This document shows, one piece after another, positions 6,820 through 25,883 of a stretch of DNA of 45,105 nucleotides. The DNA lies in assembly GCA_937867305.1 (NCBI GenBank), contig CALMKJ010000026.1:1-45105 (forward strand). Direction: 5' to 3'. Position numbers and translations under genes: made by a program. The stretch comes from an uncultured Ectothiorhodospiraceae bacterium. GTDB lineage: Bacteria; Pseudomonadota; Gammaproteobacteria; JAABTG01. Positions within the stretch are counted from its first letter, which is position 1; every line of letters begins with the position of its first letter. The notes below the pieces were generated by a model that saw only the letters and a list, made by a program, of their open reading frames with translations, did not search any database and was not told where the DNA came from.

Positions 6820-7563
6820 TCAACAGCCCTCGTTCACGATCAATCCCCCGCCGCCGGCCGGTTCGGCGGGTGCCGCCGGGAATGCAGGAGCCGTGGGTGG
6901 GCTGGGCGCGGCCGGTGCCGCGGGCGCCATCGGCGCAACCGGAACCGCCGGAGCCGCCGGAGCCACCGGAGCCGCAGGAGCCACCGGTGCGTGTGCGGGG
7001 GAGGCTGCGTCCGCGACGCGCACGAAGCCGCTCGCGCGTGCCCGGGCCCACTCGGCGGACTCGCGACAGGCCGCGGCGAGCCGCTTGCCGTCGGCCGGGT
7101 CCCCGGCCCCCGAAGCCGCTGCCTGACCCAGGTGGGCAAGCCAGCCGCGGTAGCCGCCGTCGAGCGAATAGGCCTCGACCCCGGTGAGGCGCAGCAGCAG
7201 CGCGGCCTGGGCCCCGGACGACGCCTCGTCCCCGTACACCACGACCACGCCGCCCGTGCCCAGGCGCTCGGTGCCGGCCCGGCTCACGGCCTCCGGGAGT
7301 GGCATGTGCTCGGCGCCCCGGATCGGCCCCGCGTCGAACTCGGAGTGGGTGCGCAGGTCCACGAGCCGCAGCTTGCGGTTCCCCGCGGCGACCCAGTCCG
7401 AGAGCTGCTGCGCCGTCACGCGGTACTCCCCCTTGGCCACGCCGGCTGCGACCTGCGCCAGAGAGGGGGCGGCGGAGGCCACTGGAGCCCTCTCGCAGCC
7501 GGCCAGGGGGGCGCTCGCCAGGGCCGCGGCCAGGGCGGCAATACGAAAGGCGTTCGCGTTCAT
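6820..7563 (-). CDS. Rhodanese-like lipoprotein without catalytic Cys, Pro/Ala-rich tail
   Basis: A 247-residue protein. It has a lipobox (LASAPLAGC, Cys23), then a single rhodanese fold: YRVTAQQLSDWVAAG, LRLVDLRTHSEFDAGPIRGA and LDGGYRGWL. The active-site loop reads VVVYGDEASSG, with Gly where sulfurtransferases have Cys, so catalysis by the usual persulfide route is not expected. The C-terminal third is an APVAPAAP-type repeat followed by GGGGLIVNEGC at the very end. The start is the ATG at 7563, 8 bp after the NrfD stop. It is the seventh gene of the leftward operon and probably a membrane-tethered binding or scaffold partner of the oxidoreductase; this role is inferred. Confidence 0.82.
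   Translation of the reverse strand: MNANAFRIAALAAALASAPLAGCERAPVASAAPSLAQVAAGVAKGEYRVTAQQLSDWVAAGNRKLRLVDLRTHSEFDAGPIRGAEHMPLPEAVSRAGTERLGTGGVVVVYGDEASSGAQAALLLRLTGVEAYSLDGGYRGWLAHLGQAAASGAGDPADGKRLAAACRESAEWARARASGFVRVADAASPAHAPVAPAAPVAPAAPAVPVAPMAPAAPAAPSPPTAPAFPAAPAEPAGGGGLIVNEGC
6901..6990. repeat. 9-bp-unit repeat coding for Pro/Ala tail
   Basis: Imperfect 9-bp units (GGAGCCGCC, GGAGCCACC, GGAGCCGCA) recur along this stretch. On the minus strand they encode Ala-Pro-Val/Ala-Pro-Ala triplets in the tail of the rhodanese-like lipoprotein. The plus strand in another frame gives a collagen-like Gly-x-y reading, which is a by-product. Confidence 0.7.
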
Positions 7564-7571
7564 GGTCTCGT

Positions 7572-8582
7572 TCACTCCCGAGTTGAGTTGAGCCGCTCCA
7601 GCCACCGGGCGTCGTACTCCTCGACGTACTGCTGGTAGGCGGTGCGCTGTCCGATGTCCACGGTGATCTCGCGCAAGAGGTATCCGCCCACGAGGATGAG
7701 CAGTGGCGCGGCGAGGAACCAGAGGCAGATCCCCCTCAACTCGAGCACCTCGAGCCCGAGCGGCACCAGGAGCCCCAGGCCCACGAAGAGGACCCAGAAG
7801 GCCAGCGCCTGCTCACCGGAGAACACCTCGCGGGCAGCCTCCACCTGGACCGCGCTGCCCGTCGCGAGGCTCACGAGGAGGAGCGCGACGAGCACCAGCT
7901 CGGCCAGGATGAGACCGATGTCGATGCGGGTGAAGAGGGTCTTCTCCTCGTGGTGGAAACGCGCCGCGAGGACGATGAGCGCTGCCGCGGTGGAGAGCCC
8001 CGACACCAGGAAGAGTGGCCCGAGGACGCCGGAGTTCCAGAAGGGGCGGGCGTTGAAGGCGCTCAACAGAATCCCGGTGTAGACCCCCAGCGCGGCACCG
8101 GAGACCAGGGTCACCGCCGCGATGGGGCGGCGTCCCCGCTCGGCCGCGTTCATCAGGGCGGACATGCCGGGCACGCGGGCCGCCTGCGCGGCGAGCGCCG
8201 GATAGCCGGCCCGCAGGCTCGCCAGGATGAGGGCGATGCTGGCCGGGTAGACGAGGAGGAGGAACCAGGCGCCCCAGGACATGGGCGAGGTCGGTTCGAA
8301 GGTGGTGTAGAAGCGGTAGACGTAGAGCTTGTGGGAGAGGTCGAGGAACAGGAAGAGCATGCCCGCGGAGAGCACCAGGGGGGCCAGCAGGATGGCCTGC
8401 CGGCCGGCGAAGGGGGCCTGCTCCTCGCGCCGGGCGAGCACGATGACCGCGGCGAACACCATGAGCCCTGCGGTGAGTCCCCCGAGGTAGAGGTAGAGCG
8501 GGATCTCCCAACCCCAGACGGAGAGCACCGGATCGATGCCGGGGTTGTGGCGCAGCGTGACGAGGAGCTCTTCGGTGGCCAT
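7572..8582 (-). CDS. NrfD/PsrC-type membrane anchor subunit
   Basis: A 336-residue polytopic inner-membrane protein with about eight to nine hydrophobic segments, of the NrfD/PsrC family that exchanges electrons between quinones and periplasmic iron-sulfur partners. Family-like features are IPLYLYLGGLTAGLMVF near the N-terminus, LFLFLDLSHKLYVYRFYTTF, SPMSWGAWFLLL and VYTGILLSAFNARPFWNS. Its ATG follows the ferredoxin stop with no gap, and that gene in turn overlaps the molybdoenzyme gene. The three therefore form a classic catalytic/electron-transfer/anchor (A-B-C) set. The C-terminus is extended and charged (QYVEEYDARWLERL). Reaction direction (quinol oxidation or reduction) cannot be told from sequence. 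Confidence 0.92.
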   Translation of the reverse strand: MATEELLVTLRHNPGIDPVLSVWGWEIPLYLYLGGLTAGLMVFAAVIVLARREEQAPFAGRQAILLAPLVLSAGMLFLFLDLSHKLYVYRFYTTFEPTSPMSWGAWFLLLVYPASIALILASLRAGYPALAAQAARVPGMSALMNAAERGRRPIAAVTLVSGAALGVYTGILLSAFNARPFWNSGVLGPLFLVSGLSTAAALIVLAARFHHEEKTLFTRIDIGLILAELVLVALLLVSLATGSAVQVEAAREVFSGEQALAFWVLFVGLGLLVPLGLEVLELRGICLWFLAAPLLILVGGYLLREITVDIGQRTAYQQYVEEYDARWLERLNSTRE

Positions 8583-9125
8583 CTAGGTGAGGTAGTACAC
8601 GTTGGGCTGGTTGCCGGTCTCCGGAAGCAACACCTTCCAGGCGCGGGTCGCCAGCAGGCGGCTCACCGTGCTCGCGGGGTCGTCGAGCACGCCAAAGTGC
8701 ATGCAGTGCGTGGGGCAGGTCGCGACGCACGCGGGGTCGAGCCCGCGCTCCACGCGGTGCGCGCAGAAGGTGCACTTGTCCACGTAGCCGTCCGGGCGCA
8801 TCACCAGCCGCGCGTCGTAGGGACAGGCCGCGATGCAGGCCTTGCAGCCCGTGCACTTCTCCGGCGCCACCAGCACGATGTTGGTGTCGCCCCAGAAGTG
8901 GCTGGCCCCGGTGGGGCAGGTGTAGACGCACGTGGCGTGCGAGCAGTGGTTGCAGCGCTCGCTGCGGAACTCCGTCGCGAGGTCCGGGTAACGGCCGTGG
9001 GTGGCCTCGACGACCCAGTCGCGGTTCAGGCCGTCGGGGACGCGGTTCTCGGTCTTGCAGGCGACCACGCAGTCCCCGCAGCCGATGCACAGCCGGGTGT
9101 CGATCACCATCGCGTAGCGGGTCAC
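8583..9125 (-). CDS. Four-cluster ferredoxin subunit (PsrB/PhsB/NrfC-like)
   Basis: A 180-residue electron-transfer subunit with four cysteine groups typical of DMSO-reductase-family B subunits: CIGCGDCVVAC at the N-terminus, CNHCSHATCVYTCPTG, CTGCKACIAACPYDA and CTFCAHRVERGLDPACVATC. These would hold four [4Fe-4S] clusters. There is no signal peptide, as usual for such subunits, which are exported bound to the Tat-bearing catalytic subunit. The GTG start overlaps the TGA stop of the molybdoenzyme gene (GTGA), implying translational coupling, and the stop touches the start of the NrfD gene. It links the molybdenum centre to the quinone-binding anchor. Confidence 0.93.
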   Translation of the reverse strand: MTRYAMVIDTRLCIGCGDCVVACKTENRVPDGLNRDWVVEATHGRYPDLATEFRSERCNHCSHATCVYTCPTGASHFWGDTNIVLVAPEKCTGCKACIAACPYDARLVMRPDGYVDKCTFCAHRVERGLDPACVATCPTHCMHFGVLDDPASTVSRLLATRAWKVLLPETGNQPNVYYLT

Positions 9126-11311
9126 GCCGGCTTGCCCTCCGCCATCAGGGTCACGAAGTTCGCGCGCATGCCCGTACCGCCCATCAGCGGGTCGACCTTC
9201 ACCCGCGTCATCAGGCCCGTGTCGTCAGCCCCGGCCCCGCGGGCGAGGTTGAGCCCGGGCGCGGTGTGGCCGAAGCCGTGGGCGAGGTACACGCAGTCGG
9301 GGCGGATCCGCTCGGTGACGCGCACGCGCACCGGCAGGCTCACCGCGCCGTCCTGGTTCTTCAGGCGCACCCGTTGCCCGCTCGCGAGGCCGCGCGGACG
9401 GGCGGCGTCCGGGTGCACCCACAGGGTGTTCTCCGGCATCAACTGGAAGAGCAGCGGGTTGTTGCCGGTGCGCCCGAAGGTGTGGGCGGGCGCGCGGCCG
9501 TAGACGAGGCGCAGGAAGCCAGCGGGCGTCTCCTCGGGCGGGGTGTAGCGGGGCAGGGGGTCGAGCCCGGCCTTCGCGAGCTCCGTGGAATGGAGCTCGA
9601 TCTTGCCCGTCGGTGTCCGGAAGCGCACCGCCTGTCCCGGCGTGAAGTACGCTGCGGTCTTGCGCGGGAAGCGCTTGAGCCCCACGCGCTGCATCTCCGC
9701 GAGGGAACTGCCGACCTGCTGCAACTGCCAGTCCAGCACCTCCGCGTAGTCTTGCCACGGGAACCAGGCGCCGAGCCCCAGGCGGTGGCCCAGCTCGCGC
9801 GCGATCCACCAGGCCGGCTTCGTCTCGTAGCGGGGGGCTAGCGCAGGCATGCGCAGGGCGAGGGAGGGCTCGCGCTCGGGGGCGTTGCGCAGCTCGTCGT
9901 AGCGCTCCAGGTAGGTGCACTCGGGCAGGACGACGTCCGCGTACCCCGTCACCTCGGCGGGCTGCACGTCCACGACGACGAAGAGGTCCAGTTTCTGCGA
10001 GGCCTCCTCGAGCTTGCCGGTGACCGCGGGGATGCTGAGTGGAAGGTTCGTGCCGTAGACGATCCAGCCCCGATAGTAAGGCCGCTCACCCACCGAGGCG
10101 TCGATGACGGCGTTGGTGACGTCGGCGTCGGCGAACGGGAACCCCCCGCGCCGGGCCTGGAGGTCCGCCGCCTTCGACTTGGGGTAGGGCGGCGTCGGGT
10201 ATTCCGGCAGGCTCACCTTCTCCGGCGCGTAGAAGCCGCCCGGCCGGCCCCAGGACCCGAGAAGCGCGTTCAGGATGGCGATGGCCCGGCTGCGCTGGGT
10301 GTCGTCCCCGTACCACGTGACGTGGCGGCCCGGGTGCACCAGGGTCGCGGGGGCGTGCCGCGCCATCTCGCGGGCGGTCTCGCGGATCACCTGCGGGTCG
10401 ATGCCCGTCTCGAGCCAGGCCCACTCGGGGGTGAACGGCTCGACGTGCCGGGTCAGCTCGGCGAGGCCGTGGCAGTAGCGCTGGACGTAGTCGCGGTCGT
10501 AGAGCCCCTCGCCCACGATGACGTGCGTCCAGGCGAGCAGGAGCGCCAGATCGGTGCCCGGGCGGATCGGCAGCCAGTACCGGGACTTCGCGGCGGCGAC
10601 CGAGAACCTCGGGTCGACCGTGATGACGCTGGCACCGGCCTCGATCGCCCCGATGAAGTCCTGCACCTGCCCGTTGTGCAGGTTCTCCCCGAGGTGCGAG
10701 CCGATCAGCACGATGCAGCGCGAGCGTGCCATGTCGGTGCGCTCGGGGGAGCCGAGCAGCTCCCCGAAGGTCAGCCGGAAGCCGACGTCGCGCGGACCCC
10801 GACACTGGGCGAAGGAGGGCGCGGCGTAGGTGTCCGCGCCATAGGCCCGCAGCAGGTGTCGGAAGAAGGCCCCGCCGGAGCCGTGGCTGAAGAGCGCGAC
10901 CCGCTCGGGGCCGTGCTCCCTCGCGATCCGCTGCAGGCGCTCGGCGATGTAACCGAGCGCTTCGTCCCAGGAGACGGGCCGGAAGCGCTGCTGCCCGGGC
11001 TTCCCTTCGCGCAGCAGCGGCTGGCGCAGCCGGCTCGGGTCGTCCCAAGCCCCCGGTCCGGCGGTGCCCCGGGTACACAAGCGCCCGCCCGAGTGCGGGT
11101 CGTCCGGGTGGCCGCTGACCTTCCAGGGCCGCCCGTCGTGCACGTGGGCGTAGCCCGCGCACCTCCAGAAGCACACCTCGCAGACGGTCGGGGTGACCAC
11201 CGCCTCCGAGTCCCGGGGCACGCGGGGCTCGACCCCGCAGCCGGGGAGCGCCCCCGTGGCGGCACCGAGTCCGGCGGCGCCGGATATCCGGATGAAGTCA
11301 CGCCGTTTCAA
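9122..11311 (-). CDS. Tat-exported molybdopterin oxidoreductase (PsrA/PhsA-like)
   Basis: A catalytic subunit of about 729 residues in the DMSO-reductase superfamily. The proposed TTG start gives a clean Tat signal (KRRDFIRISGAAGLGA); an upstream GTG at 11368 would add 19 residues read through a hairpin, so I prefer 11311. A [4Fe-4S] ligand set follows (C44-x2-C-x3-C-x27-C79), then the molybdopterin domains. The likely Mo ligand is Cys170 in SFAQCRGPRD, as in polysulfide, thiosulfate and tetrathionate reductases rather than Ser or SeCys enzymes. The segment GALPGC at the signal end is lipobox-like. Neighbouring rhodaneses, like Sud next to psr genes, favour a polysulfide or thiosulfate-type substrate, but this is inference. 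Confidence 0.9.
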   Translation of the reverse strand: MKRRDFIRISGAAGLGAATGALPGCGVEPRVPRDSEAVVTPTVCEVCFWRCAGYAHVHDGRPWKVSGHPDDPHSGGRLCTRGTAGPGAWDDPSRLRQPLLREGKPGQQRFRPVSWDEALGYIAERLQRIAREHGPERVALFSHGSGGAFFRHLLRAYGADTYAAPSFAQCRGPRDVGFRLTFGELLGSPERTDMARSRCIVLIGSHLGENLHNGQVQDFIGAIEAGASVITVDPRFSVAAAKSRYWLPIRPGTDLALLLAWTHVIVGEGLYDRDYVQRYCHGLAELTRHVEPFTPEWAWLETGIDPQVIRETAREMARHAPATLVHPGRHVTWYGDDTQRSRAIAILNALLGSWGRPGGFYAPEKVSLPEYPTPPYPKSKAADLQARRGGFPFADADVTNAVIDASVGERPYYRGWIVYGTNLPLSIPAVTGKLEEASQKLDLFVVVDVQPAEVTGYADVVLPECTYLERYDELRNAPEREPSLALRMPALAPRYETKPAWWIARELGHRLGLGAWFPWQDYAEVLDWQLQQVGSSLAEMQRVGLKRFPRKTAAYFTPGQAVRFRTPTGKIELHSTELAKAGLDPLPRYTPPEETPAGFLRLVYGRAPAHTFGRTGNNPLLFQLMPENTLWVHPDAARPRGLASGQRVRLKNQDGAVSLPVRVRVTERIRPDCVYLAHGFGHTAPGLNLARGAGADDTGLMTRVKVDPLMGGTGMRANFVTLMAEGKPA

Positions 11312-11346
11312 GTTCTTCGGGCTCTCGAAAAAGGTCGGAGATCGAT

Positions 11347-11371
11347 GGGGTGCCCCGCAAGGGGACACCCC
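11347..11371 (-). other. Intercistronic GC hairpin
   Basis: A near-perfect inverted repeat (GGGGTG-T-CCCC pairing with GGGG-CACCCC around a TTG loop, minus strand) lies between the triple-rhodanese gene and the molybdoenzyme gene. No T-run follows directly; TTTTT occurs about 14 nt on. It may be an mRNA stability or partial termination element that sets different levels for the two genes. Confidence 0.5.
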
Positions 11372-11408: not shown

Positions 11409-12710
11409 TCACTCGAAGACGTAGCTGCCGTCGCCCTTGATGGTGAGCGCGTCGTTCAGGAAGCGCACCTGGTCGTAGCCGAGCTTCTTCAGGAACTGGT
11501 ACGCCATCTCGGAGCGGGATCCGTTGGTGCAATAGGCGACGATGGGACGGTCCTTCGGCAGCGACGAGGGATCCGCCTGCAGCTTGTCGAGGGGCAGGTG
11601 CGTCGAGCCCTTCAGCACACCCATCGCGGCCTCCTTGGCGTCGCGCACGTCCAGCAGCAGCGCGTTGCCGGGCGCGGCGACCACTTTCGCGAACTCCTCG
11701 GTCGACAGCGAGCCTTCCTTCGGCTTCTTCGTGTAGGCGATCTGGGTCGGGGCTTCGCCGGTGACCGTCGGCCGGCCCTCCTTCACCCACGCCTGGTAGC
11801 CGCCCCCGAGGATCGTGGCGTTCTTGTAGCGGTACTTCTTCAGCTCCGCGAACGCGGTGAGGACGTCCTCGCCGTTGTCCGTGTTGCCATAGACCACGAT
11901 GGGCGCCCCCATGTCGGCCACGCCCGGGAGCCTCGCCGGTGCCTTCTCGGCGATGAATTTCTGGGTCATCGCGGGGAACGCCGCGGACTCGATCGACACC
12001 GCCCCCGGCAGGTGCCCTGCGGCCACCTCCGCCTTCGGGCGCACGTCGATGACGACGTGATGCGGGTCGAGGTGGGCCGCGACCCACTCGGGTACCGAGG
12101 TCACCGGCTTGCCGGCCTTCTTCCACGCGGGAATGCCGGCCTGGAAGCCCTTCAGGTTGGTGTGGCCGGCCTTGGTGGCGATCTCGATGGAGCTGCCCGT
12201 GTAGGGACAGGTGGGACCACCACAATAGAAGATGACCATCGTGCCCTTGTCGGTGGGCAGCTTGTCCAGGTTGTTCGGCAGGTCCTTCCAGAAGATCTGG
12301 ATGGCGCCCGGGATGTGCCCTTCGAGGTACGGTCCCTTCGGGCGGGCGTCGACTAGCAGGAACGGGTCCTTGCCGGCGCGGATCCGCTCGAGCTCCTCCA
12401 TGCTGATCTCGGCCCCGGGCGGAAGGGCGAACACCACCTTGGTGATCCGGGTGGCCGGCTGACCGGGCGTGTGCTCGACCTTGATCAGGTCCGGGGTGCC
12501 GAGCTCCTTGATGCCCGCCGCGTTGACGAACTCGGTCTGCGGACCGAAGAGCACGACCTGGGACTTTCCGCTCACCTCGACCTGGATGGTGTTGGCCTTG
12601 TTCGAGATGTCTTCGATGCGGCCCTCCACGGTGTCGGCCCGGGCGGTCGGGACCAGGGCGAGCAGGGCGGCGAGCAGGGCGGAGAGGGGCGTCGGGCGCG
12701 GGATCGACAT
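11409..12710 (-). CDS. Periplasmic triple-rhodanese protein, copy 1
   Basis: A 433-residue protein with a signal peptide (LSALLAALLALVPTARA, cut near residue 25). An N-terminal beta-rich domain (DTVEGRIEDISNKANTIQV, about 26-95) precedes three rhodanese domains. Domain 1 has FYCGGPTCPYTG (Cys163 and Cys168), domain 2 reads VVYGNTDNGED with no catalytic Cys, and domain 3 has VAYCTNGSRSEMAY (Cys394). It ends in IKGDGSYVFE. It is a tandem duplicate of the upstream gene at 12866-14170, and the two align along their full length. A role as a sulfane-sulfur carrier or polysulfide-binding protein for the downstream molybdoenzyme is likely by analogy with Wolinella Sud, but not shown. The ATG is preceded by an AGGT-like site. 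Confidence 0.92.
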   Translation of the reverse strand: MSIPRPTPLSALLAALLALVPTARADTVEGRIEDISNKANTIQVEVSGKSQVVLFGPQTEFVNAAGIKELGTPDLIKVEHTPGQPATRITKVVFALPPGAEISMEELERIRAGKDPFLLVDARPKGPYLEGHIPGAIQIFWKDLPNNLDKLPTDKGTMVIFYCGGPTCPYTGSSIEIATKAGHTNLKGFQAGIPAWKKAGKPVTSVPEWVAAHLDPHHVVIDVRPKAEVAAGHLPGAVSIESAAFPAMTQKFIAEKAPARLPGVADMGAPIVVYGNTDNGEDVLTAFAELKKYRYKNATILGGGYQAWVKEGRPTVTGEAPTQIAYTKKPKEGSLSTEEFAKVVAAPGNALLLDVRDAKEAAMGVLKGSTHLPLDKLQADPSSLPKDRPIVAYCTNGSRSEMAYQFLKKLGYDQVRFLNDALTIKGDGSYVFE

Positions 12711-12865: not shown

Positions 12866-14170
12866 TCACTCGAGGACGTAGCTGCCATCGCCCTTGATCA
12901 CCAGTGACTCGTTCAGGAAGCGGACCTTCTCGAAGCCGTTCTTCTTCAGGAAGTCGTACGCCATCTCCGAGCGAATGCCGTTGCTGCAGTAGGTGATGAC
13001 GGGCTTGTCCTTCGCCAGGACGGACGGGTCGGCCTGAAGGCGGTCGATGGGGATGTGCAGCGCTCCCGGCAATTTGCCGCCTGCCACCTCCTTGTCCTCG
13101 CGCACGTCCACCAGGATCGTGTCGCCCCGGTTCTCGACCAGCTTCGCGAACTCGTCCCGGGACACCGCGCCGGGCTTCAGCTTCTTCACGTAGCTGATCT
13201 GCGTCGTGGCCGCCCCCGCCTCGATCGGCAGGCCCTGCTTCACCCATTCGGGGTAACCCCCCTTCAGGATGGCGGCGTTCTTGTACTGGTACTTCTTCAG
13301 CTCCCCGTAGGCCGTGAGCACGTCCTGCCCGTTCTCGGTGTCCCCGTACACGACGATGGGAGCCGCCATGTCGGCGACACCCGGCAACCGGGCCACCTGC
13401 TTCTCGGCGACGAACTTCTGGGTCATCGCAGGGAACTCCGCAGCCTCCATCGCCACGGCCCCTTTGACATGACCTTTGGCCGATTCGGCCTTCGCGCGCA
13501 CGTCGATCACCACGGTGTTCGGGCCGAGACCGGCGGCGACCCACGAGGGGCTGGCGACGACCGGCTTGCCGGCCTTCTTCCAGGCGGGAATTCCGGCCTG
13601 GAAACCCTTCAGGTTCGTGTGGCCGGCCTTGGCCGCGATCTCGATGGACTGCCCCGTGTACGGGCAGGTCGGGCCGCCGCAGTAGAAGATGAGCATCACC
13701 CCCTTGTCGGCCGGCAGCTCGTTCAGGCGGTTCGGCAAGTCCTTCGGGAAGATGTTGATGCTGCCCGGCAGGTGCCCCGTGACATATTGCTTCTCGGGAC
13801 GGGCGTCCACGAGGACGAAGGGTTCCTTGCCCGCGCGAATCGCCTCGAGCTCCTGCAGGCTCACCTCCGCTCCGGGTGGCAGGCCGAAGACCACCTTGGT
13901 GATCCTGGTCGCGGGCTTGCCGGGGGCGTACTCGACCTCGATCAGGTCCGGCGAGCCGAGGTCCTTCACGCTGGCCGCGTTCACGTACTGCGTCTCCGGT
14001 CCGAAGAGAACCGTGACCGGCGGCTGGCCTTCGGGGGTCAGCTTGATGGTGGACCCCTTGTTGGAGATGTCGTCGATGCGGCCCTTGACGGTGTCCGCAC
14101 CAGCGCCGGCCGACAGCGCGAGGCCGCCGGTCAAGACGAGGACGAGGCAGGTGATTCGCCTGTGGGACAT
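12866..14170 (-). CDS. Periplasmic triple-rhodanese protein, copy 2
   Basis: A 434-residue paralogue of the downstream copy, with the same architecture: signal peptide (ITCLVLVLTGGLALSAGAGA), N-terminal beta domain (DTVKGRIDDISNKGSTI), then three rhodanese domains. Domain 1 has FYCGGPTCPYTG (Cys164, Cys169). Domain 2 has VVYGDTENGQD, where Gly276 replaces Cys. Domain 3 has ITYCSNGIRSEMAY (Cys395). The C-terminus again reads IKGDGSYVLE. Both copies lack the middle-domain cysteine, so this loss predates the duplication. The ATG follows AGGAGGATAGGAGC, a strong ribosome-binding site. It lies 90 bp behind the multiheme gene, and that gap contains AGGCAA repeats that may be regulatory. Probable periplasmic sulfur relay protein. 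Confidence 0.92.
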   Translation of the reverse strand: MSHRRITCLVLVLTGGLALSAGAGADTVKGRIDDISNKGSTIKLTPEGQPPVTVLFGPETQYVNAASVKDLGSPDLIEVEYAPGKPATRITKVVFGLPPGAEVSLQELEAIRAGKEPFVLVDARPEKQYVTGHLPGSINIFPKDLPNRLNELPADKGVMLIFYCGGPTCPYTGQSIEIAAKAGHTNLKGFQAGIPAWKKAGKPVVASPSWVAAGLGPNTVVIDVRAKAESAKGHVKGAVAMEAAEFPAMTQKFVAEKQVARLPGVADMAAPIVVYGDTENGQDVLTAYGELKKYQYKNAAILKGGYPEWVKQGLPIEAGAATTQISYVKKLKPGAVSRDEFAKLVENRGDTILVDVREDKEVAGGKLPGALHIPIDRLQADPSVLAKDKPVITYCSNGIRSEMAYDFLKKNGFEKVRFLNESLVIKGDGSYVLE

Positions 14171-14260: not shown

Positions 14261-16237
14261 CTAGGGGAGGAGGCAGTTTGCGGTGGGGTCGGTCGGCGTG
14301 GGTGGGCAGACGAAGGCGAGCACCCCGCCGTCAGGTCGGACCTCGATGCGCAGGTCCTGCAGGCGAGAGAGCACGTCCATCCCGAGCACCGGCTTCCAGT
14401 GGCTGTCCGCGGAGGCACAGGCGAGCGCCCGCACGCCGGGCAACACGCAGGAACCGATGCGCAGTCCTTCGAGGAGGTAGTGCCTTGCCTCGGCGCCACC
14501 ACCGTGGATGAGCTCCACGTTCACTTCCCCGAGGGGCAGCGCCCGGTTGCGCCCGCACATGCGCTGCAGGTGCGGGTGGGGGAGCACGGTGACGGCCGAG
14601 CCGGTGTCGAGCAGCAACGAGAGGTCCGGGTCCTGCACGCAGCCCACGAGCCGGACCGGGACGTGCAGCAGTCCCTCGCGCAGGGTGAGGGGCACGCGCT
14701 CGGGACCGTTGCGCTCGGCAGGGGCCTCGCCGGGCGGGGGAGCGGCCGACGGAGCGGACGGGGGAGCGGACGGGGGAGCGGACGGGGTAGCGGGCGGGGG
14801 AGCGGGCGGCGTGCCGTGGCAGCTCCCGCAGGCCCGCGCCGGCCCCACCGTGTGCGGGCTGATGGGCACGAGCTCGCGCCACGACCGCACCGCCGCGGGC
14901 CCGCCAGCGGGAGGCGGGAACTCCGCGCTCATGGCCATGCCGGGGACGAAGGGTGCGATGCGCCCGTCGGGTCGCTCCCCGAGGTTCGGCACGACGGGCT
15001 GCATCTTCCCGCGGTCCGCGAGCCAGCGCCCGGGGGTCAGCCGGCGCTCGTGATGGTCCCACTGCTCGGCGCCCGGCTCGAAGCGCACGTGGCAGCCCTC
15101 GCACTGGGGCGCCCACTGGCTGTGGCAGGCCTCGCAGGTGAGGCGAGCGTGCTCGCGCGCGTATGGGTGGGCGGGCATCCGCGCCTTTCCGCCCTCGCGG
15201 TGGCAGTCCTCGCAGACGGGACCGGCCTTCCCCGCCAGGCCCATCACCTGGGTCCCGCGGTGACAGTCGACGCAGCGCATTCCCGCCCGGTGGTGGGCGT
15301 CGCCCGGGACGCGCTCCACCAGTCGGCCGTCGGGGAGCCGCCCCAGGCGTGACCGGTCCACCCGTGCGAGCGCGGACTCGTCCACCTCGGCGAGGCCGGA
15401 GTAGGCGAGGGCCATGCGCGTGGCGCGGGAGTGACAGCCGAAGCAGCGCTCGTCCCGCACCCGGGCGGAGAGCTCGGCGTGCGCACCCGCGGGGTAGTCG
15501 TTCAGGTGGCAGGCGAGGCACCCGCCCCCGCGGTCGCGCACCGGGTCGAGCGCGTGCCGGGCCTTGGGGTGCGCGATGTGGCAACTCGCGCAGAGCTTGC
15601 GAAAGAGCGAGTCGGCCGGTGACTGGCCGAGGCTGGCGACGCCCGCGGCCGCCGCCGGGGCGGACTTCCGATCGCCTGCGGGGGCCTCGCCAAAGGCCTG
15701 CCGGTTGCCCGTCACCATCCCGCGCAGGGTCGCCATGGGACTCGCGCGCACACCGGCCAGCTCTGCCGGGTGACAGCGCCCGCAGGTCCGCTCCGCGTTC
15801 TCCAGGTTCCCCGGGAAGGCGACGAGCCCGGCGTGCGCGAGCTCCCGTGTCGCGGCCGCGGCGTCGCCGGCGTGGCAGGCGGTGCAGTCTCCCGCAGCGA
15901 AGGCATGTCCCGCCGGGTGGCCCTGGTCGCGGACGGGGTGGCAGCCGAGGCATCCGGGGACGGCGGCTGCGGCCACCGCTTCGAGGCCGAGAAGGGCCGT
16001 GAGGGGCAGGGCGGTGAGGGCCAGGGGCGTCAGCACGAGGGGCGCCAGGGTGAGGAGCGCGAGGGCCAGGAGCGGCGCGCGCACGCTCCCGCCGGCGCGG
16101 CGGTCCGACCGGCCCGGGCTCCCCGCAAGCGGGGCCACGAATGGAGCCGCGCTTCGCCTCCCCGCAGATTTGCGCCAGATCAAGTGGCCTGCATCTTGGT
16201 CAAGGACCTGGTGGACGCACTCCGGTTCGTCACTCAT
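14261..16237 (-). CDS. 11-heme cytochrome c fused to retropepsin-like protease domain
   Basis: A 658-residue protein with an unusual domain order. After a hydrophobic export segment (residues about 53-90) come eleven CxxCH haem sites between residues 96 and 474, beginning CLGCH and CTACH and ending CEGCH and CGSCH. A proline-rich linker (about 476-510, PPP and APPS units) follows. The C-terminal 140 residues resemble a single-domain clan AA aspartic protease: LLLDTGSAVTVLP with Asp544, and a matching VLGMDVLSRL near 617-626. The ATG at 16237 has GAGGG 5 nt upstream but places about 50 charged residues before the signal segment; a GTG at 16084 gives a cleaner signal peptide but a poor ribosome-binding site. 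It heads the leftward operon. Likely a periplasmic electron carrier; the function of the protease part is unknown. Confidence 0.85.
   Translation of the reverse strand: MSDEPECVHQVLDQDAGHLIWRKSAGRRSAAPFVAPLAGSPGRSDRRAGGSVRAPLLALALLTLAPLVLTPLALTALPLTALLGLEAVAAAAVPGCLGCHPVRDQGHPAGHAFAAGDCTACHAGDAAAATRELAHAGLVAFPGNLENAERTCGRCHPAELAGVRASPMATLRGMVTGNRQAFGEAPAGDRKSAPAAAAGVASLGQSPADSLFRKLCASCHIAHPKARHALDPVRDRGGGCLACHLNDYPAGAHAELSARVRDERCFGCHSRATRMALAYSGLAEVDESALARVDRSRLGRLPDGRLVERVPGDAHHRAGMRCVDCHRGTQVMGLAGKAGPVCEDCHREGGKARMPAHPYAREHARLTCEACHSQWAPQCEGCHVRFEPGAEQWDHHERRLTPGRWLADRGKMQPVVPNLGERPDGRIAPFVPGMAMSAEFPPPAGGPAAVRSWRELVPISPHTVGPARACGSCHGTPPAPPPATPSAPPSAPPSAPSAAPPPGEAPAERNGPERVPLTLREGLLHVPVRLVGCVQDPDLSLLLDTGSAVTVLPHPHLQRMCGRNRALPLGEVNVELIHGGGAEARHYLLEGLRIGSCVLPGVRALACASADSHWKPVLGMDVLSRLQDLRIEVRPDGGVLAFVCPPTPTDPTANCLLP
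14736..14807. repeat. 12-bp tandem repeat coding for Pro-rich linker
   Basis: Six 12-bp units, consensus GGGGGAGCGGAC, with two adjacent identical copies at 14760-14783. On the minus strand they encode four-residue Pro/Ala/Ser units joining the cytochrome to the protease-like domain. The linker contains PPP tripeptides, the kind of site relieved by EF-P-type factors. Confidence 0.8.
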
Positions 16238-16283: not shown

Positions 16284-17597
16284 ATGAATCGGATGGAGGT
16301 CGTCGTGCGCAGCCGCTCACTCGTCCTGACCCTCGCTCTCGTGCTGATCGGAGGTTTCCCGGCGCATTCGGCGTACGCCGCCCGTACGACGGCGGACGAC
16401 GAGGCCGAAGAGCCGTTCCAGGGAAGGACCGTTCAGTATTATCGCCCGGAAGCTTGCAAGAAGTGCCACGAGGAAATCTACAACCAGTGGAAGTCCTCGA
16501 TGCACGCGAAGAGCACGGCGCTGAAGGACCCCATCCACGAGGCGATGTACCAGATGGAGGTCGGCTCGCCGACGGAGGAGGGCGTCAAGCACAAGAAGTC
16601 TCAGACCTATCCGGTCTGCCTGCAGTGCCACGCGCCGGTCGCGGCGATGGAGAAGAAGACCAAGCTTGACGAGAAAGAGGCCTACAGCAACGGCGTCGGG
16701 TGCGTGGTGTGCCACTCCTTCGCCCACTTCAAGGGCATCAAGAAGCCGGACGGCAAGTACCAGCTCGGCCAGCTGGCCTATCAGGTCGACACCGAGCAGC
16801 TCTACGGGCCCTCCGGCATCTCCTACACCAAGAAGCGGGTGCCCAAAGGGTCTACGTGGCCGATTCCGGTCAACCACCCCCAGCCCATCAAGGGCAGCAA
16901 GGCGTCGCTCTTCAAGAGCAACGACCTCTGCATGGGATGCCACGACCAGCGCAACAACCCGAAGGAAGTGCCCCTCTGCATGACCGGCCCCGAGTACGAG
17001 AAGGGCAAGGCCTTCATCAACTGCCAGGCCTGCCACATGGCGCCGACCGAGGTGGTGAACAAGGACGGCGAGAAGGTCAAGGTGTTCGACCACACCATGG
17101 CCGGTGGGCACCACGACAAGATGATCACCCAGGGTGTCGCGTTGAGCATGGACGTGAAGCGCGAGGGGGACAATTTCAAGGTCGACATCACGCTGCGTAA
17201 CCGCCTGCCGCACGCCTACCCGACCGGCGCGCCGTTCCGCAACGCCATCGTGCGGGTGGCCGCGTACGACAAGGACGGGAAGCTGCTGTGGCAGAACTAC
17301 GAGAAGCACCCCTCCAAGGACGACCCCAAGGCCTTCCTCCTCCTCGCCCTCGGCAAGGACGGCAAGCCGGTGATGCCACCCGAGGCCACCGAGATCCTGA
17401 ACGACTCGCGCCTGCAGCCGGACGAGACCCGCGCGCTCGAGTACAGCTTCACCGCCGCGGGCGTCGGCATCGTGCGCACCGAGCTGCTCTACCACCTGCT
17501 GACGCCGCCGGTGCTCGAGATGTTCGGGGACAAGCTGCCGGAAGAAGTGAAGAAGGCAAGGGTCGCGGCCTCGGCCGAGGAACGCTTCGAAAGCTGA
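16284..17597 (+). CDS. Exported pentaheme cytochrome c
   Basis: A protein of up to 437 residues. The signal peptide is RSRSLVLTLALVLIGGFPAHSAYA. Five CxxCH sites follow (CKKCH, CLQCH, CVVCH, CMGCH, CQACH), all in the first 250 residues, interspersed with His residues suitable as distal ligands. The C-terminal 180 residues carry no haem and form a beta-rich domain (VDITLRNRLPHAYPTGAPFR, AYDKDGKLLWQNYEKHP), seen in several multiheme cytochromes of the c554-like group. ATG codons lie at 16284 and 16293; a GTG at 16305 has GGAGG 5 nt upstream and gives a neater signal peptide. It heads the rightward operon, divergent from the 11-heme gene, and probably receives or donates electrons in the periplasm. 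Substrate unknown. Confidence 0.88.
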   Translation: MNRMEVVVRSRSLVLTLALVLIGGFPAHSAYAARTTADDEAEEPFQGRTVQYYRPEACKKCHEEIYNQWKSSMHAKSTALKDPIHEAMYQMEVGSPTEEGVKHKKSQTYPVCLQCHAPVAAMEKKTKLDEKEAYSNGVGCVVCHSFAHFKGIKKPDGKYQLGQLAYQVDTEQLYGPSGISYTKKRVPKGSTWPIPVNHPQPIKGSKASLFKSNDLCMGCHDQRNNPKEVPLCMTGPEYEKGKAFINCQACHMAPTEVVNKDGEKVKVFDHTMAGGHHDKMITQGVALSMDVKREGDNFKVDITLRNRLPHAYPTGAPFRNAIVRVAAYDKDGKLLWQNYEKHPSKDDPKAFLLLALGKDGKPVMPPEATEILNDSRLQPDETRALEYSFTAAGVGIVRTELLYHLLTPPVLEMFGDKLPEEVKKARVAASAEERFES

Positions 17598-17713
17598 GGA
17601 CCCCGGCGGCGAAACGCGGTTCCCGGGGCGGGCGGGGCGCCAGCACGCCCGCCCCGTGAGAGGCCGCAGCGGTCGGTCGAGCCCCACGGTATCGGTGGTC
17701 AGGAGGATTGACG

Positions 17714-18430
17714 ATGGTCTCGCTTGGAACATGGCTTCGGTCGCGCGCCCTGTGGAGCGGAGCCTGCCTGGTGGCCCTGCTGCCCCTCGCAGCGGTGGGT
17801 GACGGGGCGAGCGACGAGGTGAGCGACAAGCCCGCGGTCGCCCGACCGGCGCCCCGCACCCTGGAGACGGTCCACCCGGAGGCGAACCCCGCCAAGACAG
17901 TGGACGGCCAGGCGCCGTTCGAGGAAGCCCCGCTGTTCCGGGTCGTCACCCGGAAGAAGGACTCGGACATGCACCCCTGCGGGGATTGCCACGACGAGAC
18001 GCTGTCGGACTTCAAGCCGCGGGACCTGCAGCGGCCCCACGACGACTTCAAGCTCGAGCACGGGCTGCACGGCCGCGGCGAGTTCTGGTGCTTCACCTGC
18101 CATCGCGTGAAGGGCACGGGCGGCCTGAAGACGATGGAGAGCGAGCGGCTCGGGTTCGACGACGCCTACGTCATCTGTTCCCAGTGCCACGCCCAGGAAG
18201 CCCGGGACTGGACCCACGGCGCCCACGGCAAGCGCGTGGGGGGCTGGGAGGGAGACCGCACGCTGCTCAGTTGCACCGTCTGCCACTTCCAGCACCGCCC
18301 GAAGATGGACCCGCGCAAGGCCGAGGAGCCTCCGCCGGTGCGCCGGGGCCTCCCTCGCCAGGACACCAATCCCCACGAGCCGTTGCCGGTGTGGGAGCGC
18401 CACGGGGCCCAGGGCCCGGTGACCAAGTGA
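17714..18430 (+). CDS. Exported tetraheme cytochrome c
   Basis: A 238-residue protein with a signal peptide (WSGACLVALLPLAAVGDGA) and four CxxCH haem sites (CGDCH, CFTCH, CSQCH, CTVCH). A proline-rich, basic C-terminus follows (KMDPRKAEEPPPVRRGLPRQ). His residues such as HDDFKLEHGLHG and HGAHGKR are likely second axial ligands. The ATG at 17714 has AGGAGG 7 nt upstream. It lies between the pentaheme gene (116 bp before) and the iron-sulfur subunit gene (60 bp after). It resembles the small multiheme subunits that pair with iron-sulfur and NrfD-type proteins in Hmc/Dsr/Nrf-type transmembrane complexes. It is probably the cytochrome partner of the two downstream subunits. Confidence 0.9.
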   Translation: MVSLGTWLRSRALWSGACLVALLPLAAVGDGASDEVSDKPAVARPAPRTLETVHPEANPAKTVDGQAPFEEAPLFRVVTRKKDSDMHPCGDCHDETLSDFKPRDLQRPHDDFKLEHGLHGRGEFWCFTCHRVKGTGGLKTMESERLGFDDAYVICSQCHAQEARDWTHGAHGKRVGGWEGDRTLLSCTVCHFQHRPKMDPRKAEEPPPVRRGLPRQDTNPHEPLPVWERHGAQGPVTK

Positions 18431-18490
18431 CCGGGTAACTCGGCGGCACCCAAACATCCGGATCGAACACGTACACGGACAACGTTGGCC

Positions 18491-19420
18491 ATGAGCGACC
18501 ACGACCAGCACGACGACGCACCCGACCGCGCCCGCCGGCGCTTCCTGCAGCGGGTCGGTACCGTGGCAGCCGCAGCCGCGGCGGCCCCGGCGAGCGAGGG
18601 GGCCTGGGGCGGCAAGACCCTCGAGGACGCCCTGGGGGAGTTCTTCCAGGACAACTACCGGCGCATGACGCCGGAAGAGGTGAAGGAGGCGATCGGGCGC
18701 ATCGAGCGCCGGGCGAAGCGCCTGTACGGCGTGGACATCACCGTCGGCAACGAGCCGCCGCTGCCCGGGGTCGTCTTCGGGTACGCGATCAACGTCTCCA
18801 AGTGCCGCGGATACCGGGACTGCGTTCGCGCCTGCGGCGAGGAGAACAACCAGAGCCTCGACATGCAGTACATCCGGGTGCTGCAGCTCGACCAGGGCAG
18901 CCTGAACTTCGAGCAGGCCGAGCACTACTACCCGGGCGACCAGGTCCCGGTCGAGGGCAAGCACTACGTCCCGGTGCAGTGCCAGCAGTGCGACAACCCC
19001 CCGTGCGTGAAGGCCTGCCCGGTCGGCGCGACCTGGAAGGAGCCCGACGGCGTCGTGGTGGTCGACTACGACTGGTGCATCGGTTGCCGGTACTGCATGG
19101 CGGCCTGCCCTTACCAGGCCCGCGTGTTCAACTGGGGCGCGCCGGACCTGCCGGCCGAGCGCATCAACCCCAAGACCCACTACCTCGGCAACCGCCCGCG
19201 GCAGGCCGGATCGGTCGAGAAGTGCCACTTCTGCCTGCAGCGCACGCGCGTCGGCAAGCTGCCCGCCTGTCAGGAGGCCTGCCCGACCGGGGCACGGGTG
19301 TTCGGGAACCTGCTCGATCCGGAGAGCGAGATCCGCTACGTGCTCGAGCACAAGGTCGTCTTCCGGCTGAAGGAGGACGTGGGGACCGAGCCGAAATTCT
19401 GGTACTACCGGGACGTCTGA
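18491..19420 (+). CDS. Tat-exported iron-sulfur subunit (DsrO/HmcB/NrfC-like)
   Basis: A 309-residue protein with a Tat signal (RARRRFLQRVGTVAAAA), so it acts in the periplasm. Four cysteine groups follow. The first reads C105-RGYRD-C111-x3-C115, with Tyr108 where the canonical second Cys would be. The others are complete: CQQCDNPPCVKACPVG, CIGCRYCMAACPYQA and CHFCLQRTRVGKLPACQEACP. The first site may thus hold a three-iron cluster or use another ligand. The ATG at 18491 is used; a TTG 6 nt upstream is an alternative. It is followed after 13 bp by the NrfD-type gene, giving the usual iron-sulfur/anchor pair that exchanges electrons between quinone and cytochromes. Confidence 0.9.
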   Translation: MSDHDQHDDAPDRARRRFLQRVGTVAAAAAAAPASEGAWGGKTLEDALGEFFQDNYRRMTPEEVKEAIGRIERRAKRLYGVDITVGNEPPLPGVVFGYAINVSKCRGYRDCVRACGEENNQSLDMQYIRVLQLDQGSLNFEQAEHYYPGDQVPVEGKHYVPVQCQQCDNPPCVKACPVGATWKEPDGVVVVDYDWCIGCRYCMAACPYQARVFNWGAPDLPAERINPKTHYLGNRPRQAGSVEKCHFCLQRTRVGKLPACQEACPTGARVFGNLLDPESEIRYVLEHKVVFRLKEDVGTEPKFWYYRDV

Positions 19421-19433
19421 GGAGGGGTGAGGC

Positions 19434-20693
19434 GTGGCCCTGTTTCGATTCCTTTCCAATGGAGTGCGGCATGCCTTCCGGGGCTCGCCGACCTACTGGG
19501 CGTGGCTGGGATTCCTGGTGCTGGTGATCGCGAACGGGCTGTGGGCCTATTCGCACCAGCTGTCCGAGGGGCTCATCGCCACGAACATGAGCAGCCAGGT
19601 CTCCTGGGGCTTCTACATCGCGAACTTCACCTACCTGGTGGGGGTCGCCGCGGCGGCCGTGCTGCTCGTCATTCCCGCCTACATCTTCCATCGCCAGGAC
19701 GTGAAGGACGTGGTGCTGCTCGGCGACACCATGGCGGTCGCCGCGGTGATCATGGCGATCCTGTTCGTGGTGGTCGATCTGGGGCGGCCGGACCGCATCT
19801 GGCATCTGCTGCCGGGGGTTGGCATCTTCAACTTCCCGACCTCGATGCTGGCCTGGGACGTGGTGGTGCTCTCGGGCTACCTGCTGCTGAACCTCGGGAT
19901 CTCGTTCTACATCGTCTACAGCCACTACCGCGGCCGCCAGCCGGTGCTGCGCTATTACTTCCCCTTCGTGCTGCTGGCGATGTTCTGGGCGATCTCCATC
20001 CACACCGTGACGGCCTTCCTGTTCTCCGCGAACAGCGGCCGGCCGTTCTGGTCGAACCCGCTGCTCGCGCCGCGGTTCATCGCCTCTGCGTTCGCCTCGG
20101 GACCCGCGCTCAGCATCATCGCCCTCACCATCGTGCGCAAGACGACGCGCTACCCCGTGCAGCAGAGCGTGATCGACATGCTCTCGGTGGTGATGACGGT
20201 GGCGCTCCAGATCACGCTCTTCTTCGTGGGCGCGGAGCTCTTCACCGAGTTCTACAACGAGGGGCACCACGCGGCGTCCGCGCGCTACCTGTTCCTCGGC
20301 CTGCACGGGCACGGCGTGCTGGTGCCCTGGATCTGGACGGGCATCGGGATGCTCGCGGTGGCGGTCTTCATCCTGATGGTCCACCCGCTTCGCCGGCAGC
20401 CGATCCTGCTGCTGCTCGCCTGCGTGCTGACCGCGGCGGGGGTCTGGATCGAAAAGGGGATGGGCCTCGTCATCCCCGGCTTCGTGCCCACCACCATGGG
20501 GGAGGTCTACGAGTACCTGCCGAACTTCCTCGAGGTAAGCGTGGCGCTCATGGTCTGGGCCGTGGGGCTGCTGCTCGTGACGGTGATGATGAAGATCGCC
20601 GTCGCGGTGGAGTGCGGCGACATGCGCGACCGCAAGGCGGCGGACAGGACCGTCGACGTCCCGCCGGCTTGCGCTGAGCCCGCGGCGTCATAG
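19434..20693 (+). CDS. NrfD/DsrP-type membrane subunit
   Basis: A 419-residue polytopic inner-membrane protein with about ten hydrophobic segments, of the larger NrfD branch that includes DsrP and HmcC. Family-like features are VSWGFYIANFTYLVGVAAAA, VVDLGRPDRIWHLLP, FNFPTSMLAWDVVVL, IHTVTAFLFSANSGRPFW and PGFVPTTMGEVYEYLP. It would bind a quinone and pass electrons to the Tat-exported iron-sulfur protein and the tetraheme and pentaheme cytochromes encoded just upstream. The GTG start has TGAGG close upstream. A strong inverted repeat 19 bp after the stop probably ends the operon. It is clearly longer than, and only distantly like, the NrfD protein of the leftward operon, so the two units are not a recent duplication. 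Confidence 0.92.
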   Translation: MALFRFLSNGVRHAFRGSPTYWAWLGFLVLVIANGLWAYSHQLSEGLIATNMSSQVSWGFYIANFTYLVGVAAAAVLLVIPAYIFHRQDVKDVVLLGDTMAVAAVIMAILFVVVDLGRPDRIWHLLPGVGIFNFPTSMLAWDVVVLSGYLLLNLGISFYIVYSHYRGRQPVLRYYFPFVLLAMFWAISIHTVTAFLFSANSGRPFWSNPLLAPRFIASAFASGPALSIIALTIVRKTTRYPVQQSVIDMLSVVMTVALQITLFFVGAELFTEFYNEGHHAASARYLFLGLHGHGVLVPWIWTGIGMLAVAVFILMVHPLRRQPILLLLACVLTAAGVWIEKGMGLVIPGFVPTTMGEVYEYLPNFLEVSVALMVWAVGLLLVTVMMKIAVAVECGDMRDRKAADRTVDVPPACAEPAAS

Positions 20694-24137: not shown

Positions 24138-25883
24138 ATGGACCAAGACGTCAAGACCCTGCACGACTATCTGAGCGTCGTAGGCCGCCGCAAGTCGCAG
24201 ATGCTGTGGGCGGGGCTCCTCATCCTGGCGGCGAGCCTTGCCGTCGCGTTCGGGCTGCCGCCGGTGTACCGGTCGACCGGCACCATCCTGATCGAGCAGC
24301 AGGAGATCCCGGTGGAACTGGTGCGGTCCACCGTCACCAGCTACGCGGACGAGCGCATCCAGGTCATCGGCCAGCGGGTGATGACCAGCGCCAACCTGCT
24401 CGGCATCATCGACAAGTACGGCCTGTACCCCGACGAGCGCAAGCGCGAGCCCGCGGAGGTCGTGGTCGAGGACATGCGCGGGGACATCAAGGTCGATATG
24501 GTGAGCGCGGAGGTCGTCGACCCGCGCACGGGGCGCCCCACCCAGGCCTCGATCGCGTTCACGGTCTCCTACGAGAGCCGGTCTCCCCAGCTGGCCCAGC
24601 GGGTCTCGAACGAGCTGGTGTCGCTGTACCTGAACGAGAACCTGAAGACCCGCGCCCAGCTCGCCTCGGACGCCGCGAAGTTCCTCGCCGAGGAGGGCAA
24701 GCGCCTGTCGGAGCAGATCGCGGAGCTCGAGAAGAAGCTCGCGGAGTTCAAGGAGAAGAACGCGGGTCTCCTGCCCGAGCTCGCCCAGCTCAACCTGCAG
24801 ATGATGGACCGCACCGACCGCGAGATCCTCGAGGTGGAGCGCCAGATCAGCTCCCTCGAGGAGCGCAAGATCCTGCTCCAGGCCCAGCTCGCCCAGGTCA
24901 ACCCCATGGAGAAGCTGGTCGCGGAGACCGGCGAGCGGATCCTGGGGCCCGCGGACCGCCTGAAGGTCCTGCAGAGCCAGTACGCGAGCCTCAGCGCGCT
25001 CTACGGCCCCGATCATCCCGACGTGGTCAAGACCCGCAAGGAGATGCGTGCCCTCCAGGCCCAGGTCGGCGGCGCGGACGCCTCCTCGGACCTGCAGCGC
25101 CGGCTCGACGGGGCCCGGGCAGAGCTGGCCGCGGCGGGGCAGAAGTACGGCCCGGAGCACCCCGACGTGCGGCGCGCCCAGCGCAGTGTCGCGAGCCTGG
25201 AAAGAGAGCTGGCCCAGGCGGGTGTCCGGCGTGGCAGCGTGCGCTCGAGCGCGCCGCCCGACAACCCGGCCTACGTGCAGTTGCAGGCCCAGGTCAACGC
25301 CGCGGACACCGAGCTGAAGACCCAGCGCAGCAAGCGCGAGGAGCTGAAGCAGAAGCTCGCCGAGTACGAGAATCGCCTCACGCAGGGCCCCCAGGTCGAG
25401 CGTGAGTACCGGGCGCTCACCCGGGACTACGAGAACGCGGTGGCGAAGTACCAGGAGATCAAGGCGAAGGAGATGCAGGCCCAACTCGCGGAGTCGCTCG
25501 AGACCGAGCGCAAGGGCGAGCGCTTCACGCTCATCGAGCCGCCCCTGCTGCCCGAGGAGCCGGTGAAGCCGAACCGGCTGGCCATCGCCTTCCTCGGCCT
25601 GGTGTTCTCTTTTGCGGGCGGCATCGGCAGCGCGGCGGTCTCGGAGAGCCTCGACACCACCGTGAGGGGCCGAGCCGCGGTGGCGGAGTTGCTGGGCGCA
25701 CCGCCGCTCGCGAGCATCCCGCGCATCGAGACCGACCGGGAGCGCCGGCGCAGGAATCGCCGCCCGGTGTGGTGGGTTCTGGGTCTGCTCGTGCTCCTCG
25801 CCGCGGCGGCGTTGTTCGTGCACCTGTTCGTGATGCCGCTCGACGTGGCGTGGTACGTGGCCATGCGGCGGATGGGGTTGTAG
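24138..25883 (+). CDS. Polysaccharide chain-length determinant (Wzz/GNVR, exosortase locus)
   Basis: A 581-residue co-polymerase of the PCP-2 type. A Wzz domain starts near residue 6 (LHDYLSVVGRRKSQMLWAG), with the first membrane segment at about 22-41. A long periplasmic part with two coiled-coil blocks follows (about 190-265 and 370-470; for example EQIAELEKKLAEFKEKNAGL). Next are the GNVR region (GPQVEREYRALTRDYENAV) and a second membrane segment around 490-510. Residues 536-581 add a basic stretch and a further hydrophobic segment. It lacks the kinase domain, which the next gene provides, so the pair forms a split chain-length/tyrosine-kinase system that controls polymer length. No clear ribosome-binding site precedes the ATG. 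Confidence 0.92.
   Translation: MDQDVKTLHDYLSVVGRRKSQMLWAGLLILAASLAVAFGLPPVYRSTGTILIEQQEIPVELVRSTVTSYADERIQVIGQRVMTSANLLGIIDKYGLYPDERKREPAEVVVEDMRGDIKVDMVSAEVVDPRTGRPTQASIAFTVSYESRSPQLAQRVSNELVSLYLNENLKTRAQLASDAAKFLAEEGKRLSEQIAELEKKLAEFKEKNAGLLPELAQLNLQMMDRTDREILEVERQISSLEERKILLQAQLAQVNPMEKLVAETGERILGPADRLKVLQSQYASLSALYGPDHPDVVKTRKEMRALQAQVGGADASSDLQRRLDGARAELAAAGQKYGPEHPDVRRAQRSVASLERELAQAGVRRGSVRSSAPPDNPAYVQLQAQVNAADTELKTQRSKREELKQKLAEYENRLTQGPQVEREYRALTRDYENAVAKYQEIKAKEMQAQLAESLETERKGERFTLIEPPLLPEEPVKPNRLAIAFLGLVFSFAGGIGSAAVSESLDTTVRGRAAVAELLGAPPLASIPRIETDRERRRRNRRPVWWVLGLLVLLAAAALFVHLFVMPLDVAWYVAMRRMGL

Follow-up and report, generated by a model that had tools for sequence, protein, structure and literature searches.

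The locus analyzed here raises the question whether a retropepsin-like domain, which follows a multiheme cytochrome in one reading frame, is a genuine part of this protein and, if so, what it may do there. The frame is located on the minus strand of the window, i.e. the whole stretch of 45,105 nucleotides that was analyzed. A sequence-only reading had counted eleven CxxCH sites in this one open frame, followed by a linker rich in Pro, whose coding DNA is a 12-bp tandem repeat, and by a C-terminal domain with DTG and LG motifs; examination of the ORF, the motif counts, and the repeat array confirmed this description. The frame comprises the following features:

14261..16237, stop included (minus strand): whole fusion ORF of 658 aa, with signal region, 11-heme ExtM-like cytochrome, Pro-rich linker, and retropepsin-like domain (from sequence; identical copy in assembly G001)
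15959..16237 (minus strand): N-terminal extension and hydrophobic export signal, residues 1-93 (from sequence)
14816..15952 (minus strand): eleven CxxCH heme-binding sites, ExtM-like cytochrome, residues 96-474 (NF040943, E 3.5e-39; CxxCH invariant in 12 aligned proteins)
14714..14815 (minus strand): Pro/Ala/Ser-rich linker, residues 475-508 (from sequence)
14731..14809 (array in the DNA, no strand assigned): 12-bp tandem repeat coding the linker, 6.6 copies, 86% matches
14264..14713 (minus strand): retropepsin-like clan AA domain, residues 509-658 (PF13975 above cutoff; leave-one-out profile)
14600..14608 (minus strand): DTG active-site motif, Asp544 (sequence motif)
14375..14386 (minus strand): LGMD second motif, residues 618-621 (L and G invariant in alignment A2)

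The frame runs from 16237 to 14261 without any internal stop. A GAGG-like stretch is located upstream of the annotated ATG, and an in-frame GTG at 16084 (residue 52) provides an alternative start. Initiation at this GTG would yield a compact, more usual Sec-type signal peptide, and the true start may therefore lie downstream of the annotated ATG. The unit length of the linker array is such that expansion or shrinkage keeps the frame. Furthermore, third-position GC was 0.90 in the retropepsin-like domain as compared to 0.91 in the cytochrome part; hence, by this measure the two halves resemble a single coding sequence of this genome. The open-access literature searched contained no description of a fusion between a multiheme cytochrome and a clan AA domain, in agreement with the earlier reader, to whom no such described protein was known.

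The fusion was found in two genomes only, namely the window genome and one congeneric assembly (G001), in which the same gene is located on a 744-kb contig; the 4974 bases compared are all the same. An artefact of assembly could be considered, as the linker is a tandem repeat and identity to the sister assembly is interrupted at another place in the window, near 9.2 kb. However, that interruption is 5 kb away from the junction, the frame remains open through the 12-bp repeat, and the same junction is present on the 744-kb contig of the second assembly, the independence of which is not sure because source data were possibly shared. An assembly chimera was thus rejected on account of the G001 contig, and we regard an artefact as very improbable. 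The existence of two copies argues against a single assembly error at the junction; being identical, these copies say nothing on selection.

Between about 9.18 and 25.83 kb, window and G001 show no difference, and left of 9.2 kb they diverge clearly. Comparison of window positions 77-31663 with G001:C1 (L109, L110) revealed a mosaic, with about 90.6% identity left of 3.3 kb and clear divergence from 3.3 to 9.2 kb; the differences in the NrfD and NrfC genes are mostly found at third codon positions. This mosaic points to recombination or to an assembly in which strains were mixed.

The sequence-only reading had proposed a search for the same fusion in other genomes, but recurrence was not borne out: the fusion was seen in one genus only, with two identical carriers. 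It was not found among about 370 sampled genomes of the class with the domain as a query, nor among about 400 genomes of the phylum with the whole protein. Twelve genomes that carry unfused relatives of the cytochrome yielded no match to the domain (E 0.001), a weak result as this search had no positive control. A plasmid search also returned no match.

The cytochrome half was analyzed for its family. Its CxxCH sites start at residues 96, 118, 152, 216, 240, 265, 322, 342, 368, 379, and 470; shuffled copies of the protein contained 0.06 such sites on average and at most 2 in 2000 trials. The best family was NF040943 (ExtM, selenite/tellurite reduction) with the best stretch at residues 90-355, and the score of 134.6 bits stayed below the equivalog cutoff of 800; therefore, this half is termed ExtM-like and not ExtM. 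All 12 members of the cytochrome alignment A5 match the same profile, the eleven CxxCH sites are invariant among them, and the number and placement of the hemes are as in the gammaproteobacterial subgroup. These matches place the cytochrome half in the ExtM family as a divergent member, an assignment that the earlier reading had missed.

In Geobacter sulfurreducens, ExtM carries 12 hemes, and its gene lies in a cluster that also encodes a rhodanese-like protein, a porin, ExtKL, and a Rieske/cytochrome b pair; selenite and tellurite were reduced less when the porin, ExtI, was lost (PMC5877670). The fusion cytochrome belongs to the same profile family as ExtM of the extHIJKLMNOPQS cluster, and genes for rhodaneses and an ExtKL-like cytochrome are located nearby, as in the ext cluster. 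In contrast to ExtM, it carries 11 hemes, scores 135 vs 800 bits, and has its tail swapped for a protease-like domain. Also unlike in the ext cluster, ExtI and ExtOP are absent among the neighbours examined, and a Psr/Phs-like molybdoenzyme and DsrOP-like subunits are encoded instead.

A model of cytochrome plus domain was good in the cytochrome part, with a pLDDT mostly below 50 in domain and linker. Foldseek with this model gave no match at E ≤0.001, and the best VIA-align match, octaheme nitrite reductase (Z 3.4), was too weak to use. A segment between hemes 10 and 11 (model residues 292-374, protein 376-458, window about 14864-15112) is predicted with confidence in model m6ad503a41aad and is mostly beta; Foldseek found no significant match to it in the PDB.

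A scan of 84,980 prokaryote species revealed 189 encoded relatives of the cytochrome, the best 80 of which were examined. In the frames of these best 80 of 189 the DTG motif was absent, and a clan AA profile run on their loci detected no significant protease, either fused or free. The closest unfused relatives, ExtM-like cytochromes mostly from Gammaproteobacteria (L029-L042, L045; G002), share about 40-53% identity with the fusion protein, carry 11 CxxCH sites in the same places, and belong to the same cluster. They differ from it in that they keep a conserved tail and have no clan AA domain, fused or nearby. This heme-free tail of about 75 residues follows the last heme in the 15 closest relatives and in six more from the order of L029, with the pattern ALGLGxG...DGLPxxAWT...RPxxxxE or a close variant, also written ALGLGxG...DGLPADAWT...FNxxE. 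It is missing from the window protein, where linker and domain stand in its place. Evidently, the fusion lineage has replaced the conserved tail of the cytochrome by a linker and a retropepsin-like domain. The tail itself probably had a binding role.

Additionally, the loop between hemes 8 and 9 is mostly missing from the window protein, with a spacing of 26 as compared to about 89 in most close relatives. The window cytochrome is located on a long branch of the tree, and support around this branch is low. The same loop (about 90 residues; window 15134-15202) is also mostly missing in L029, L269, and L271-L275. We do not read this loss as shared descent with L029 and L269-L275, since the window protein falls outside their group in the tree; apparently, the loop was lost more than once. 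One of the relatives, L042 (JABDRC010000269.1), is titled as a Halobacteria archaeon and contains the whole gammaproteobacterial-type cluster with a cytochrome 47% identical; it is probably a misbinned contig, otherwise a case of transfer.

The following genes surround the fusion ORF:

12866..14170 (minus strand): RhdA, three-rhodanese-domain protein (PF00581, three stretches)
11409..12710 (minus strand): RhdB, three-rhodanese-domain protein, tandem paralogue of RhdA (about 75% DNA identity to RhdA)
9122..11368 (minus strand): PhsA/PsrA-like molybdopterin oxidoreductase (PF00384; NF012032 473 bits, under cutoff 694)
8583..9125 (minus strand): NrfC-like 4Fe-4S subunit (profile matches)
7572..8582 (minus strand): NrfD/PsrC-like membrane subunit (PF03916)
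6820..7605 (minus strand): RhdC, single rhodanese protein
16284..17597 (plus strand): ExtKL-like multiheme cytochrome, divergent neighbour (NF040886 79 bits, under cutoff 250)
17708..18430 (plus strand): small multiheme cytochrome, divergent neighbour (profile match)
18485..19420 (plus strand): DsrO-like Fe-S subunit, divergent neighbour (NF045797 192.6 bits, cutoff 200)
19434..20693 (plus strand): DsrP-like membrane subunit, divergent neighbour (NF045798 404 bits, over cutoff 350)

The position of the cytochrome gene beside rhodaneses and a molybdoenzyme, to which the sequence-only reading had pointed, is a conserved trait: rhodaneses and/or the molybdoenzyme complex were found in 13 of the 15 closest loci, where genes for the molybdoenzyme, NrfC, NrfD, and rhodaneses accompany the cytochrome (only part of them at contig ends). 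L035 and L038 depart from this pattern, with the ExtKL-DsrOP part present instead in L038. L041 and like unfused relatives contain one copy of the three-rhodanese gene as compared to the tandem RhdA/RhdB of the window. A cluster of dsrOP homologues with a tetrahaem gene was described in cable bacteria, where its function is not known (PMC13047784). It resembles the plus strand of the window in that a small multiheme cytochrome is encoded together with DsrO-like and DsrP-like proteins, but no fused protease was described there. The neighbourhood suggests that the cluster may serve redox reactions of sulfane sulfur, thiosulfate, or selenium oxyanions in the periplasm. Further along, window 24138-25883 encodes an XrtA-system polysaccharide chain-length determinant (TIGR03007, 277 bits, just below cutoff) in an apparent exopolysaccharide region.

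The C-terminal half was compared to clan AA proteases. Residues 509-658 contain LLLDTGSAVTVLP with Asp544 and VLGMDVL with LGMD from 618; both the catalytic hhh-D-T/S-G motif (LLLDTGS) and the second hh-G motif (VLGMD, 617-621) of clan AA are thus present. The domain alone matched PF13975 with 30.3 bits (E 6.5e-7, cutoff 28.2); within the whole fusion protein the score was 27.8 bits, just under this cutoff. A leave-one-out profile was built from 12 other clan AA proteins, with the fusion domain excluded to avoid circularity. It scored the domain with 52.9 bits, whereas the best of 5000 shuffled copies reached 7.5 bits. Nine columns are invariant in the 13-member clan AA alignment, including the active-site D, T, and G and the L-G of the second motif. 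Hence, the earlier claim of a multiheme cytochrome joined to a clan AA domain stands, with DTG and LG intact.

A chance resemblance to clan AA would be compatible with the failed single-sequence structure prediction and with the scores for PF13650 (23.6 bits, cutoff 24.3) and for the clan AA subfamily TIGR02281 (25.5 vs 57.95 bits). It is strongly disfavoured by the result of the shuffling, by the PF13975 score of the domain, and by the occurrence of both motifs in the right order; a chance motif was rejected on the basis of the leave-one-out profile and PF13975, and we give this explanation hardly any credence. Pattern scans for further homologues of the domain returned only weak clan AA look-alikes, and viral contigs yielded no homologue suitable for a structure alignment. 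The structure prediction proposed in the earlier reading was run on the monomer; the domain alone, predicted from its single sequence, reached a pLDDT of 34, too low to be informative on the fold.

Profile-profile comparison (hhalign) assigned 93% to a family of small exported clan AA proteins of the same class (A3) vs 57% to a TIGR02281-like set (A4). The A3 proteins (L014, L020, L023, L124) give the best profile match and share Cys positions with the domain, which contains one Cys after the IG(G/S) turn and one near the C-terminus; these two residues presumably pair. Unlike the fusion domain, A3 proteins are free-standing with about 180-195 aa, and their identity to it is 17-25%. The flap region of the domain reads IHGGGAE, where relatives have A-N/D/S-G. 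The domain alone gave no significant solved relative by phmmer, whereas the best solved match of the clan AA family profile was APRc of Rickettsia (5C9B/5C9D) with E 1e-17. APRc (RC1339) was shown experimentally to be a dimeric protease, the self-processing of which depends on the catalytic Asp (PMC4140852). Both are clan AA single domains with DTG, but APRc is not attached to a cytochrome and its activity and dimer were established by experiment, whereas for the fusion domain both are predictions.

The function that we tentatively favor is a working periplasmic aspartic protease, which would dimerise and be tethered to the cytochrome. The exported 11-heme cytochrome would pass electrons in a periplasmic system with the rhodaneses, the Psr/Phs-like molybdoenzyme, the ExtKL-like cytochrome, and the DsrOP-like membrane module as partners, a role proposed from the gene cluster. 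Since c-type hemes are attached in the periplasm, the retropepsin-like domain should be exported too. It would fold like other clan AA proteases, and as a single domain supplies one of the two catalytic Asp residues, we infer that two copies come together to form the full active site. By analogy with APRc, the paired domain may then cleave the linker that tethers it, or else partners from the cluster that are close by. This reading is supported by the presence of DTG and LG in columns invariant among 13 aligned relatives and by APRc as the best solved relative. It is weakened by the pLDDT of 34, by the unusual flap, and by the fact that the two carriers are identical in sequence and thus provide no evidence of selection on Asp544. 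A bolder version, in which the cytochrome delivers, positions, or gates the protease and the cleavage or release of sulfur/selenium respiratory components thereby comes under the control of heme loading or electron flow, appears quite improbable.

Almost as likely as a working protease is a structural module, which would dimerise the cytochrome or dock a partner in place of the lost tail, proteolysis being irrelevant. The replacement of a heme-free tail with a probable binding role fits this proposal, as does a flap that departs from clan AA relatives. The cytochrome half keeps all its hemes, which also agrees with a structural role of the domain and makes electron transfer the probable selected function; however, a pure scaffold would have no need of the intact DTG and LG motifs. 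These motifs argue likewise against a recent and nearly neutral fusion, in which the cytochrome lost its tail and acquired, in frame, an exported protease domain as a passenger with no selected role yet. Occurrence in one genus only, the long cytochrome branch, and the further loss of the loop between hemes 8 and 9 are in line with such an event, but a decaying passenger is expected to be damaged unless very young, and here the frame is open with a third-position GC much like that of the cytochrome part. We therefore consider a neutral fusion unlikely.

Both halves are of known kinds, and joining them has given a known cytochrome family a new architecture that is specific to this lineage; it is not a widespread enzyme class. 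If the domain works as the protease that we favor, the protein would be, as far as found, the first multiheme cytochrome with its own protease, and turnover or release of a respiratory carrier could be part of the carrier itself. Even if it does not, the fusion demonstrates that the tail of ExtM-like cytochromes is exchangeable, which helps to locate their partner-binding part; furthermore, the little-studied ExtM family is linked to a conserved rhodanese/Psr-like cluster in Gammaproteobacteria.

Free A3-type genes were also observed in other genomes. G002, from the same family as the window genome, contains an unfused cytochrome gene with a normal tail and a separate free A3-type protease gene; with 17% identity, the latter is no direct donor of the fused domain. 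In G013 (L267:1513-7117), a free A3-type clan AA gene divergently adjoins genes that by eye appear to encode Rieske, cytochrome b, and cytochrome c1 proteins, and a DegS-like gene, also annotated by eye, is located downstream in this locus.
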